Below, one piece after another: positions 45,995-53,317 of a stretch of 57,364 bases of DNA. The stretch spans positions 1-57,364 of the IMG/VR virus record IMGVR_UViG_3300005807_000014; one strand, written 5' to 3'. The translations under genes and the position numbers were made by a program. Source of the stretch: a virus. Below the pieces are notes generated by a model that searched no databases, had not been told where the DNA came from, and was given only the letters and a program-made list of their open reading frames with translations. Each line of letters opens with the position of its first letter. Positions within the stretch are counted from its first letter, which is position 1.

Positions 45995-46145
45995 TTTGCA
46001 GTTTTTTCTCAAGGTCATGAATTAGTTTTTTGTGTTCTGGATGACCTTTTAGATACCAGAATACAGCAGGAACAAGGTTGCTATTATATTTTTTAGCTCT
46101 AAATATTTGTCCTTTTTCTGTGCTTGTCAATGGCGGTTTATTCAC
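45984..46145 (-). CDS. Small hypothetical protein, 53 aa (GTG start)
   Basis: MNKPPLTSTEKGQIFRAKKY, then VPAVFWYLKGHPEH. It overlaps the stop of the previous gene and the start of the glycosylase, so it is probably a coupled small gene. Function unknown. Confidence 0.5.
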   Translation of the reverse strand: MNKPPLTSTEKGQIFRAKKYNSNLVPAVFWYLKGHPEHKKLIHDLEKKLQNAN

Positions 46146-46611
46146 CTTTCTCCTCCTTAAAGATTGAGCCTGTATCTCTGAGCCGGACCAGGGCTTCGAT
46201 GACCATTTCGTATTTTACCTCTGAAGGTTTAACCCTATATAATAGTTTTGAGTAAGGAGATGAAGAACACAGTAAACATTTGCCCTCATTTGTAGATATT
46301 CCAAGCCAATCACTGACCGCCGCAGTACCACCTGAATTCCCCATAAGTGGAAATCCCCTATTTATAGAAATCCCAGATCCTACATGGACACTGCCCCCAT
46401 CCTCGATCCATTTTGGACTAACGGCAATAAACCCAGCCAGGCAGCAAGGTGTCCCACAAGAAAAAACTTCTTCCAAAGTGGTTTTTGCTCCATCTTTTTC
46501 ATAATGTTGGAAACAACAATCCATATCCAACCGGAGTTTATTTTTCCTTGCCTCTTGCAGCAGTTCAATTGAGTACTGCACGTTTTCTTTATTGATAATA
46601 ATATTGCTCAC
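46138..46611 (-). CDS. Conserved phage protein, paralog of 50161-50634
   Basis: 157 residues. LRLDMDCCFQHYEKDG, CGTPCCLAGFIAVSPKWI and SDWLGISTNEG match the other copy (TRLDMSAWQQF, CGMAACFGGLIAISPEWL, REWLGLSSKDA). The Cys-rich centre is typical of an uncharacterised early family. Divergence is high, so the duplication is old or both were acquired separately. Confidence 0.65.
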   Translation of the reverse strand: MSNIIINKENVQYSIELLQEARKNKLRLDMDCCFQHYEKDGAKTTLEEVFSCGTPCCLAGFIAVSPKWIEDGGSVHVGSGISINRGFPLMGNSGGTAAVSDWLGISTNEGKCLLCSSSPYSKLLYRVKPSEVKYEMVIEALVRLRDTGSIFKEEKGE

Positions 46612-49074: not shown

Positions 49075-49084
49075 GATTTTTCCG

Positions 49085-49300
49085 TTATAGATCGCTGGGT
49101 TGGTTTTTAATTAATTTGATTATTTCATCGTTGATGTCGATGTAAGCGCTGTGCGTGTCATGGCACGTTGTATGCACAACCTCGCCATTTTTTTCAATTG
49201 TGTCGTCTGATTTAACGATGGACCGCAAACAATATCGACACACTGATGTTGCATAATATCGGTCGGCACGATCACGGAGAGTGTAGTCTGATGGATTCAT
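49085..49300 (-). CDS. Cysteine-rich small protein, duplicate 1
   Basis: 71 residues. CRYCLRSIVKSDD and HTTCHDTH, a Cys3His site. It differs from 52808-53023 at only 9 of 71 residues, with matching leaders and tails, so one copied the other recently. Overlaps the end of the upstream gene by 29 bases. Confidence 0.7.
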   Translation of the reverse strand: MNPSDYTLRDRADRYYATSVCRYCLRSIVKSDDTIEKNGEVVHTTCHDTHSAYIDINDEIIKLIKNQPSDL

Positions 49301-49637
49301 AAGTTTTTTCCCTATTTGGCTCTGAGTTGAGGGTTTCAGCTAGCGCTAACACCGGCATTTTGTCGCTGCCTGACACCAGCTGCGGTCTGCCTGATGAGTG
49401 CATAACTATTGCGCAGTGGCCACCTTGGGCATCAAAAATAGCGGGCCGGCCGTCGATGTCGGACTTGAGCGCATAGCCGTGCGGTAGTACGTAGTTTTTC
49501 CCGCCATCATCATTCCCTTTGTAGCGGTCAGTGTCATTGCCCCAACCGACTAAGCTAAATCCGGTACCTTGCTCGCTCATCATATATGCTTCAGAGCATG
49601 TAATTTCATAGATGTTGACTATAGTTGTGGCTTTCAT
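49272..49637 (-). CDS. Conserved phage protein with an HSSGRPQLVS motif
   Basis: 121 residues from ATG 49637 (GGAAAAAACC upstream). YVLPHGYALKSDIDGRPAIFD and CAIVMHSSGRPQLVSGSDKMPVL identify an uncharacterised early phage family. The upstream 34 codons of the longer frame cover the spacer hairpin and are not preferred. Confidence 0.65.
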   Translation of the reverse strand: MKATTIVNIYEITCSEAYMMSEQGTGFSLVGWGNDTDRYKGNDDGGKNYVLPHGYALKSDIDGRPAIFDAQGGHCAIVMHSSGRPQLVSGSDKMPVLALAETLNSEPNREKTYESIRLHSP

Positions 49638-49654
49638 GGTTTTTTCCTTTGTTT

Positions 49655-49667
49655 GGCCGTCCTTGGC
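49655..49667 (-). repeat. Spacer hairpin, shortened copy
   Basis: On the - strand GCC-AAGGAC-GGC, the loop of the family seen at 51579, 52560 and 53302 with a shorter stem. It lies 18 bases before the start of 49637. Confidence 0.5.
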
Positions 49668-49683
49668 AGGTTGATTTTTATTT

Positions 49684-50160: not shown

Positions 50161-50634
50161 TTAATCCTCTGTTTTGATTTCAATAAAGTTATCGAGATGT
50201 CCCTCTTTTTCCAGGTAGAGTGATACTCTCACAACGTCGGCCAGGGTGATTTCACTTGTTTGTTTTGACCCGTAAATGTCACCCTTTTTATCGGTGCTAC
50301 GTTCCATAGCGCATAAATTAACAGCATCTTTGGATGATAAGCCCAGCCACTCTCGTATAGCATAAGACCCTTTGGTTTCTCTGTTTTTATGATCAATATA
50401 AATAGGTGCTCCCCTACTAGAGATAGTATGCCCCTGTCCTAACCACTCCGGACTAATAGCAATTAGCCCTCCAAAACAAGCGGCCATACCGCAATCATTC
50501 AATTCTTTTTCTGTTTGACAGCACCCTTCCGCTTTAAATTGCTGCCAGGCGCTCATATCCAACCGGGTTTTGTTTTCAATCGCGCGTTGAATAATAGTAA
50601 CAGCAAGTTGGCGGTTGAGTTCTGGATCATTCAT
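50161..50634 (-). CDS. Conserved phage protein, paralog of 46138-46611
   Basis: 157 residues with TRLDMSAWQQFKAEGCCQTE, CGMAACFGGLIAISPEWL and IREWLGLSSKDAVNL. Its mRNA leader follows hammerhead ribozyme 1, so its transcript should start with the 5'-hydroxyl end made by cleavage at 50662/50661. Confidence 0.65.
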   Translation of the reverse strand: MNDPELNRQLAVTIIQRAIENKTRLDMSAWQQFKAEGCCQTEKELNDCGMAACFGGLIAISPEWLGQGHTISSRGAPIYIDHKNRETKGSYAIREWLGLSSKDAVNLCAMERSTDKKGDIYGSKQTSEITLADVVRVSLYLEKEGHLDNFIEIKTED

Positions 50635-50656
50635 GATTCTATCCTCTGTTTGGTTT

Positions 50657-50710
50657 ACTTGGACCCCCGAAGGGGTTTCGCTCGGTTACCAGCCGGGCTC
50701 ATCAGCAGAC
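50657..50710 (-). ncRNA. Hammerhead ribozyme 1 (type I)
   Basis: On the - strand: CUGAUGA core (50705-50699), stem II with GCCCGG and CCGAGC, GAAA (50679-50676), stem III ACCCC-uucg-GGGGU with a UUCG tetraloop, then the cleavage triplet GUC (50664-50662). Cleavage falls between 50662 and 50661. Stem I is weak (GUCUG with CAAGU). All invariant core bases are present. It lies between the 51099 and 50634 genes. Confidence 0.88.
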
Positions 50711-50745
50711 TATTAGAAAGAAATTCAGTCACTCAATTTTAATAA

Positions 50746-51099
50746 CTACTCACTGTCACTATACCCCTGACCAATCCCTCGACAATATTCTGATCCAGTT
50801 TTCGTAAAATGCGGAGGCTCTTCATCAGCTATTTCGTCAGGATTATCAGTAACTAATATTTCATAACACGTTTTCGCTGAATAACCCCCAGCGTCAGACC
50901 GGATCATTTCAATACCAGGATTGTCAAAACTGGTAGTTTCATTCGCTATTATTTCATCACGATATTTATCAAATAACGAAATATTCGTTTGTTTTTCGAG
51001 ATAATTAAACACTAAATCCCAATCCGTAAAATGAATCCTTTGGAGTAACATCATTCCGGCAATAGTTTTTTCGGCGCGTGTAATTTGTATTGTTTTCAT
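50746..51099 (-). CDS. Hypothetical protein between two ribozymes
   Basis: 117 residues. MKTIQITRAEKTIAGMMLLQ, later DAGGYSAKTCYEILVTDNPDE. Flanked by hammerheads 3 (upstream) and 1 (downstream), so its mRNA could be released as a single-gene RNA. No family recognised. Confidence 0.6.
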   Translation of the reverse strand: MKTIQITRAEKTIAGMMLLQRIHFTDWDLVFNYLEKQTNISLFDKYRDEIIANETTSFDNPGIEMIRSDAGGYSAKTCYEILVTDNPDEIADEEPPHFTKTGSEYCRGIGQGYSDSE

Positions 51100-51126
51100 A
51101 ATTTTTTTCCTATGTTTCCTTAGTTT

Positions 51127-51184
51127 ACCTGGACCCCCTAAAAAGAGGGTTTCGGCCCGGCACCACCGGGCCTCGTCAGCAGGT
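51127..51184 (-). ncRNA. Hammerhead ribozyme 3 (type I)
   Basis: On the - strand: stem I ACCUG with CAGGU (five perfect pairs), core CUGACGA (51179-51173; the U to C is at the one position free to vary), stem II GGCCCGG-uggug-CCGGGCC (seven pairs), GAAA, stem III ACCCUC-uuuuua-GGGGGU, GUC. Cleavage between 51132 and 51131. The first stem base is the last base of the TAA stop of the gene at 51184. Confidence 0.92.
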
Positions 51185-51558
51185 TATTTGATTATTTTAT
51201 CGGCATCCAGCTCACTGTGATTAAATATCGGGATGGGTTTTTGATTTAAATATTCTCTATTACGCCAATAAACCCAGAGGGTTTCCCGATATATTTTGGC
51301 ATCTCGGGATTTTACATGTTTAGAATCTATAAGATCAGATACTTTGTCCCTTAACAACATACATTCGTGTACATAGTCAATGATGCCGGCGTAACTCACG
51401 TCATCACGTTTCCACAATTTAAACACTGATAATGCATTGGCTCTAACTCCACCAAAATAAACGTATTCGCGAGAATAAAAAAATGTTTGAAAAGGGACAT
51501 AAAATTCGCTTATAGATTTATTTTTTATCATCTCCAATTCTTTTTTGTTAATACCCAT
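51184..51558 (-). CDS. Hypothetical protein
   Basis: 124 residues. FYVPFQTFFYSREYVYFGG, then YVHECMLLRDKVSDLI and WVYWRNREYLNQK. A spacer hairpin lies before its start and a hammerhead directly after its stop. Function unknown. Confidence 0.6.
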   Translation of the reverse strand: MGINKKELEMIKNKSISEFYVPFQTFFYSREYVYFGGVRANALSVFKLWKRDDVSYAGIIDYVHECMLLRDKVSDLIDSKHVKSRDAKIYRETLWVYWRNREYLNQKPIPIFNHSELDADKIIK

Positions 51559-51578
51559 TTTTGTTTGCTCCAGTTAGT

Positions 51579-51594
51579 GCGCCGTCCTTGGCGC
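51579..51594 (-). repeat. Spacer hairpin GCGCC/GGCGC, copy
   Basis: On the - strand GCGCC-AAGGAC-GGCGC, preceded by CCCC. It is before the ribosome site of 51558. Confidence 0.6.
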
Positions 51595-51600
51595 GGGGTT

Positions 51601-51819
51601 TTAGAATCCGCCCATTTCCGCTCTGTCAGCACACTCGTTGCACTGATAGCCAAGGCGTCTGTCTGCCGGCGTGATCCTATTTTGCTGCTTACACGTCGGG
51701 CAGGGCAGGTTGCGCGGGTTGCGCGTGGTCGCGGCGCGGAGTGCACTGTTGCCGCCTGGGTCAGCAAACATCAGGTCTCTCTCTCTCGTCTCGTCACAGA
51801 AATCGTCATAGTCATTCAT
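51601..51819 (-). CDS. Zinc-ribbon protein
   Basis: 72 residues. LPCPTCKQQNRITPADRRLGYQCNECADRAE has CxxC twice with the usual spacing of a zinc ribbon. N-terminus acidic. Likely nucleic-acid or protein binding. Confidence 0.7.
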   Translation of the reverse strand: MNDYDDFCDETRERDLMFADPGGNSALRAATTRNPRNLPCPTCKQQNRITPADRRLGYQCNECADRAEMGGF

Positions 51820-51843
51820 AATATTTTCCTCTGTTTGTGCTGA

Positions 51844-52074
51844 TTAGTCAGAGCGATTATTGTATAATTCAAGGGCATTTTCTCGCATGTCATCAATCGA
51901 TCCGACAAAAAAGCCATGAACAATAATTTTTGCTTGAGCTTGACCCATTTCATGACCGTCGAGGGCGATGAATCGATTCGCCTCAATTTCTGTATCGCAA
52001 ATTCCGCCCTCGCTGTCAATATAAAAACAGGCCGTGTTGTCGTCATTTTTATTCGTAAAATCATATGTTTTCAT
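51844..52074 (-). CDS. Hypothetical protein released by ribozyme 2
   Basis: 76 residues from ATG 52074, MKTYDFTNKNDDNTACFYID; then EANRFIALDGHEMGQAQAKI. Its leader after the cleavage site (TAAACCAAAAACAAAGGGAAA) is shared with several other genes in this operon. Confidence 0.6.
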   Translation of the reverse strand: MKTYDFTNKNDDNTACFYIDSEGGICDTEIEANRFIALDGHEMGQAQAKIIVHGFFVGSIDDMRENALELYNNRSD

Positions 52075-52099
52075 AATTTTTTCCCTTTGTTTTTGGTTT

Positions 52100-52158
52100 A
52101 CCTGGACCCCCAACCTGAGGGTTTCGGCCCGGTACCACCGGGCAACTCATCAGCAGAT
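52100..52158 (-). ncRNA. Hammerhead ribozyme 2 (type I)
   Basis: On the - strand: stem I AUCUG with CAGGU (one U-G), core CUGAUGA (52153-52147), stem II GCCCGG-uggua-CCGGGC with a UU bulge, GAAA, stem III ACCCUC-agguu-GGGGGU, GUC. Cleavage between 52105 and 52104. It begins at the TAA stop of the 52158 gene. Confidence 0.92.
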
Positions 52159-52559: not shown

Positions 52560-52575
52560 GCGCCGTCCTTGGCGC
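52560..52575 (-). repeat. Spacer hairpin GCGCC/GGCGC, copy
   Basis: On the - strand CCCC-GCGCC-AAGGAC-GGCGC, identical in the core to 51579 and 53302. Located between 52587 and 52541. Confidence 0.6.
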
Positions 52576-52796: not shown

Positions 52797-52807
52797 GATT
52801 TTTTCCT

Positions 52808-53023
52808 TTATAGCTCACTGGGTTGGTTTTTAATCAGCTTGATTATCTCATCGTTGATGTCGATATAGGCGCTGTGTTTGGCATGACAAGTCGTGTGCGC
52901 AACTTCGCCATTTTTTTCAGTTGTGTCGTCTGATTTAACAATGGACCGTAAACAATATCGACATACTAATGTTGCATAATATCGATCGACACGATCACTG
53001 AGAGTGTAGTTTGATGGATTCAT
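52808..53023 (-). CDS. Cysteine-rich small protein, duplicate 2
   Basis: 71 residues, 62 identical to 49085-49300 (CRYCLRSIVKSDD retained). Both copies keep all Cys and His, so both are probably functional. Confidence 0.7.
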   Translation of the reverse strand: MNPSNYTLSDRVDRYYATLVCRYCLRSIVKSDDTTEKNGEVAHTTCHAKHSAYIDINDEIIKLIKNQPSEL

Positions 53024-53041
53024 AAGTTTTTCCCTGGTTGT

Positions 53042-53056
53042 GCGCCGTCCCTGAGC
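53042..53056 (-). repeat. Spacer hairpin, diverged copy
   Basis: On the - strand GCTC-AGGGAC-GGCGC before ACAACCAGGG. The loop and 3' arm are kept but the 5' arm no longer pairs well. Confidence 0.4.
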
Positions 53057-53064
53057 TGGTGAAT

Positions 53065-53301: not shown

Positions 53302-53317
53302 GCGCCGTCCTTGGCGC
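53302..53317 (-). repeat. Spacer hairpin GCGCC/GGCGC, copy
   Basis: On the - strand CCCC-GCGCC-AAGGAC-GGCGC, then CTAACCAGGA as ribosome site of 53283. An outer CCGGT/ACCAGG helix may extend it. Confidence 0.6.

Follow-up and report, generated by a model that had tools for sequence, protein, structure and literature searches.

Three spacers in a phage gene cluster hold sequences that resemble hammerhead ribozymes, which raises the question of whether RNA from this cluster cuts itself between genes. The window, meaning the whole stretch of DNA that was analysed, comprises 57.4 kb out of a 58.1-kb IMG/VR virus record. Judging from a major head protein match, its source is a tailed phage. From ~54.4 to 45.2 kb all genes lie on the minus strand, head to tail with short gaps, and the hammerhead-like elements occupy three of the longer gaps. 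They span 1.5 kb and lie on the strand of the cluster genes. The features are listed in minus-strand order, with scores from R1, a covariance model of the phage family.

52158-52541, minus strand: gene upstream of copy 1; stem I starts at the final A of its UAA
52100-52158, minus strand: hammerhead copy 1, from one stem I strand to the other; core read directly; R1 37.1 bits, E 7e-8
52094-52097, minus strand: tail of copy 1 (ACCA), predicted partner of UGGU in loop II (52134-52137)
51844-52074, minus strand: gene 1 of the block of three that separates copies 1 and 2; start codon 30 nt past the cut
51601-51819, minus strand: gene 2 of this block
51184-51558, minus strand: gene 3 of this block; stem I of copy 2 starts at the final A of its UAA
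51127-51184, minus strand: hammerhead copy 2, the most canonical; R1 52.2 bits, E 4e-12
51121-51124, minus strand: tail of copy 2 (ACUA), predicted partner of UGGU in loop II (51162-51165), one G-U
50746-51099, minus strand: sole gene separating copies 2 and 3; start codon 32 nt past the cut
50657-50710, minus strand: hammerhead copy 3; R1 48.2 bits, E 5e-11
50651-50654, minus strand: tail of copy 3 (ACCA), predicted partner of UGGU in loop II (50688-50691)
50161-50634, minus strand: gene that follows copy 3; start codon 27 nt past the cut; weak phrog_889 match

The ATG at 52074, which opens the first gene of the block, is preceded by GGGAAAAAAUU; the mechanical open reading frame is longer and runs from an upstream TTG. 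Genes flanking the hammerheads gave no informative family match, and the label "early" that the first-pass annotation had attached to them was not borne out. The family phrog_889 is of unknown function. The product of the gene that follows copy 3 had no relatives in a protein search of viral contigs, and a nucleotide search with the region found no match among named phages. By eye, 50161-50634 and 46138-46611 (minus strand) look like distant paralogues. A small gene (71 aa) is duplicated at 49077-49311 and 52800-53034; the two copies are 3.7 kb apart, 88% identical in DNA, and flank the hammerhead region, one on either side. An 8-oxoguanine DNA glycosylase-like protein (Ogg-HhH, E 5e-15) is encoded by the phage at 45185-46018 (minus strand).

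The full hammerhead core was found in each of the three spacers, confirming the first-pass annotation, which had placed three minus-strand hammerheads here. The twelve core letters, C3 U4 G5 A6. G8 A9 / G12 A13 A14 A15.1 / U16.1 C17, surround a three-way junction and are identical in 3/3 copies. Outside the core 24/60 columns vary among the copies, and the probability that no variable column would fall in the core is 0.0045 (hypergeometric). On the minus strand copy 1 reads AUCUG-CUGAUGA-[stem II]-GAA-[ACCCUC AGGUU GGGGGU]-C/CAGGU, copy 2 ACCUG-CUGACGA-...-C/CAGGU and copy 3 GUCUG-CUGAUGA-...-C/CAAGU. The C of copy 2 at position 7 (CUGACGA) occupies a position that is free to vary. Three helices surround the core, with flaws in copies 1 and 3 and with covariation in relatives. 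Stems II and III are closed by loops and stem I is open with 5 bp in all three copies, which is the type I layout. Core, layout and R1 matches support the annotation's view of type I hammerheads in series inside a phage gene cluster.

The covariance check that the annotation had proposed gave a split result. Rfam, run over the window at gathering cut-offs and relaxed thresholds, yielded no match above cut-off, and a family-specific model was decisive. The best match below cut-off, RF03152 (RAGATH-1 hammerhead), reached 23.5 bits (copy 2) and 19.1 bits, its cut-off being 56.3. RF00163 (Hammerhead_1) gave 16.3 bits for copy 2 and nothing for copies 1 and 3 (cut-off 34). Read literally, the Rfam miss is the outcome that the annotation had named as refuting its claim; it was not taken as a refutation because the hammerhead models of Rfam release 15, at gathering cut-off, also miss other members of the phage family (five phage loci, L028-L032, and Faecalibacterium phage FP_Brigit) and the element of phage PaP3. 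Phage hammerheads with a 5-bp stem I are likely to be under-annotated.

A BLASTN search with copy 2 returned only chance matches, in Mycobacterium phages. Viral contigs were then searched for the core plus neighbouring letters. These patterns prescribed the core and some of the 3' strand of stem I; the 5' strand of stem I and the pairing of stems II and III were left free. The exact tail pattern had no match in the contigs, and loosened patterns recovered a large family from other phages, with ~170 distinct elements across the loci read and up to four per record. R1 was built from 23 sequences of other phages and no window sequence, because MAFFT had aligned copies 1 and 3 wrongly in stem II. 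Run unfiltered over the window, R1 ranked the three copies highest, at the scores listed above, and the fourth-best place reached 11.6 bits. In the seed (n=23) 97.3% of cells pair and 12/16 pairs show changes on both sides; the covariation score is 0.592, compared with 0.160 for shuffles and at most 0.111 for slid controls. Among 90 R1 matches both-sided changes appear in 14/16 pairs and the score is 0.678 vs 0.160, in an alignment fitted to the model; the seed, which was not so fitted, tests the pairing more cleanly. The three elements are almost certainly hammerhead ribozymes.

The copies differ in quality. Helices of copy 2 are perfect and its unconstrained folding yields the hammerhead (z -2.48); this middle copy looks the best of the three. 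Copy 1 carries a UU bulge, in which two additional U follow the first pair of stem II, and similar bulges are present in three relatives (L187, L248 and L240). In copy 3 stem I (GUCUG/CAAGU) has one C-A mismatch and two G-U pairs, stem II has one C-A mismatch, and the hammerhead fold (-6.4 kcal/mol) lies ~8 kcal/mol above the minimum free energy structure (-14.7). The annotation's account was too favourable to copy 3. Copies 2 and 1 should cut well and copy 3 weakly; on its own, copy 3 is expected to be slow or inactive. Cleavage of copy 1, copy 2 or both is very probable. With strong, bulged and weak copies in one cluster, the locus is a compact test case.

A further interaction is predicted between loop II and the tail 3' of stem I. 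UGGU in loop II is complementary to ACCA or ACUA in 3/3 copies, which would provide the contact of loop II with stem I that fast cleavage calls for. Among relatives with the same layout as the window's subfamily, the loop II/tail combinations were UGGU-ACC in 34, UGGU-ACU (wobble) in 6, UAGU-ACC (mismatch) in 0 and UAGU-ACU in 12 (Fisher p 9e-8, a statistic that ignores relatedness). This covariation supports a putative pseudoknot. It matches the loop II/stem I pseudoknot that PMC3088659 predicts for ~40% of hammerheads and demonstrated to be critical for fast cleavage.

Placement of the elements relative to genes is regular. Stem I of copies 1 and 2 opens with the final A of the upstream UAA, as the annotation had noted for two elements; copy 3 makes no contact, following the preceding stop codon after a 35-nt gap. 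The distance of about 30 bases to the next start was also upheld, with cut-to-start distances of 30, 32 and 27 nt for copies 1, 2 and 3. A stop triplet adjoins stem I in 119/170 distinct elements of the family. 89/119 of these stops close a frame of at least 40 codons, compared with 12.8% of random occurrences of the same triplets. In a set of 79 elements, 70 sit between a stop and a start, compared with 10.8% of random places, and the cut mostly falls 23-42 nt before the start. Automatic calls of a "stop at +9" represent the UGA inside CUGAUGA and are partly artefacts of the nearest-stop rule; the placement claim therefore rests on the test of abutting stops. The layout leaves all reading frames and ribosome-binding sites intact. 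Motif, conserved pairing and placement of the three elements are direct observations. At the hammerhead spacers, scans for intrinsic terminators and for promoters gave chance levels, and no U tract was seen.

A second intergenic element was noticed in the same cluster. It is a GCGCC-AAGGAC-GGCGC hairpin that follows a stop codon and precedes the next ribosome-binding site, at 53302-53317, 52560-52575 and 51579-51594 on the minus strand of the window, with degenerate forms in the gaps 53024-53064 and 49641-49683. Its 17-base exact form occurs in 70 stretches of viral contigs, many with the same stop-hairpin-start position before different genes. The element has no match in Rfam. No stem variants were seen, in data that had been selected by the stem, and the element may be a conserved sequence rather than a conserved structure.

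Hammerheads are patchily distributed among related phages. One genome with a major head protein 46% identical to that of the window (L024/G010) has two elements. In record G010, at L155 1141-1301 (minus strand), two hammerhead matches lie only 24 nt apart with no gene between them. Two relatives of similar genome size, G005 (58 kb) and G008 (61 kb), have the major head protein in common with the window and may be fragments; neither contains a convincing element, and so the lineage can do without it. Single elements were matched by R1 in PaP3 (46.1 bits; NC_004466 44031-44114, minus strand) and in FP_Brigit (44.6 bits). UAA adjoins stem I in both.

What would these elements do? Hammerhead cleavage leaves a 2',3'-cyclic phosphate on the upstream product and a 5'-hydroxyl on the downstream product. 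In the reading that we favour, with a probability of about 0.82, the phage's polycistronic RNA cuts itself after stop codons and ~30 nt before start codons by means of three type I hammerheads, which belong to a widespread family of tailed phages. The minus-strand cluster would be transcribed as one RNA. Each ribozyme would fold once transcribed, the loop II-tail pairing aligning stems I and II, and would cut after GUC. Predicted cleavage sites on the minus strand are 52105/52104 (copy 1), 51132/51131 (copy 2) and 50662/50661 (copy 3). Cutting would yield a leading segment to 52105, a three-gene piece (52104-51132), a one-gene piece (51131-50662) and the remainder from 50661. The single-gene messages that had been proposed are thus retained for the piece between sites 2 and 3 only, since sites 1 and 2 bracket three genes.

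Every upstream message would end just past its stop codon with two ribozyme hairpins and the cyclic phosphate; every downstream message would start with the 5'-hydroxyl and a leader of ~30 nt holding the whole ribosome-binding site. The 3' hairpin would slow exonucleases, and the 5'-OH end would escape the RNase E decay that a 5'-monophosphate stimulates. The likely use is that neighbouring cistrons are split into messages with protected ends and independent decay. From established hammerhead chemistry we infer cleavage and the nature of the ends, and we only infer an effect on message stability and dose. That the hammerheads serve to separate cistrons is probable.

We wondered whether the fixed layout might make the hammerhead a standard intercistronic processing part of many phages, with cleavage gated by upstream translation. 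During termination the ribosome would lie over stem I and the CUGAUGA strand, covering the 5' half of the core, and the cut would fall just outside the ribosome-binding site of the next gene. We regard this extension as unlikely; if true, message separation would be coupled to ribosome traffic.

Other explanations were weighed against self-processing. True hammerheads by descent might spread as small repeats, passive passengers that cut RNA with no benefit to the phage. Copies in the same genome are alike outside the core, as in the window and in L048, where they are nearly identical; presence among relatives is patchy, and purifying selection against harmful cuts would explain part of the placement pattern. 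This account has to accommodate a placement far from random, with cuts kept between stop codon and ribosome-binding site, and a core and pairing preserved over wide divergence. We consider it improbable, at perhaps one chance in five. Stable G+C-rich stems II and III directly after stop codons, together with a copy 3 that may be inactive, would also suit elements that act chiefly as hairpins, for 3'-end protection, transcription pausing or protein binding. Against such a role, twelve catalytic letters are invariant while stems and loops vary, loop III varies freely among family members, and the spacers have neither a U tract nor a terminator-like site. A pure hairpin function is very unlikely.

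The loose core pattern alone is weak evidence, giving ~1 match per shuffled window, a point in favour of accidental resemblance. When the stems are required, in the strict form of the copy 2 type, ~0.02 matches are expected per window. Chance resemblance was ruled out by the R1 scores (E 4e-12 to 7e-8, from an independent model) and by the covariation in the 90 matches, leaving it a negligible probability.

Serial hammerheads in phages have been described before, first in 2011. According to Perreault et al. 2011 (PMC3088659), multiple hammerheads flank single genes or gene blocks in prophages, and processing of long phage transcripts was proposed for them. The arrays named there are from Agrobacterium tumefaciens (triple), Azorhizobium caulinodans and Clostridium scindens; all ribozymes of three tandem arrays cleave in vitro, and the A. 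tumefaciens triple array also does so in E. coli. The first-pass claim that serial use in a phage operon is not described was therefore wrong. Like those arrays, the window has at least two same-strand hammerheads flanking genes of a phage cluster, three in this case. Compared by description, it differs from them in the phage and the genes; its three copies share the type I form and a 5-bp stem I and are close relatives of one another. The window phage is a further example of known serial phage hammerheads, not a new kind.

The regular layout of stop codon, stem I and 30 nt to the start across phages is possibly new; no statement of this placement rule was found in the available text of PMC3088659. 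That paper leaves the function of bacterial and phage hammerheads open, and in 2023 the reason for their gene associations was still called unknown (PMC10085705). The 2023 paper also recalls an enrichment of self-cleaving ribozymes close to one another and to Mu-like phage genes. The paper on HDV-like theta ribozymes does not mention hammerheads. A regular layout over ~170 elements, in a large phage family that current Rfam models miss, turns the question of hammerhead function into a testable one.

Among known models, RF00163 shares the core and the type I order with the window. RF03152 shares a hammerhead with a short open stem I, and its 5' hairpin domain is only poorly matched in the window. 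PaP3 shares the R1 match, the stop adjoining stem I and the Rfam miss at cut-offs, and a start-like codon with an upstream AAGGA lies downstream of its element. Unlike the window, PaP3 has a single copy with a longer stem III. The element that R1 finds there is probably the active intergenic PaP3 hammerhead reported in PMC3088659.
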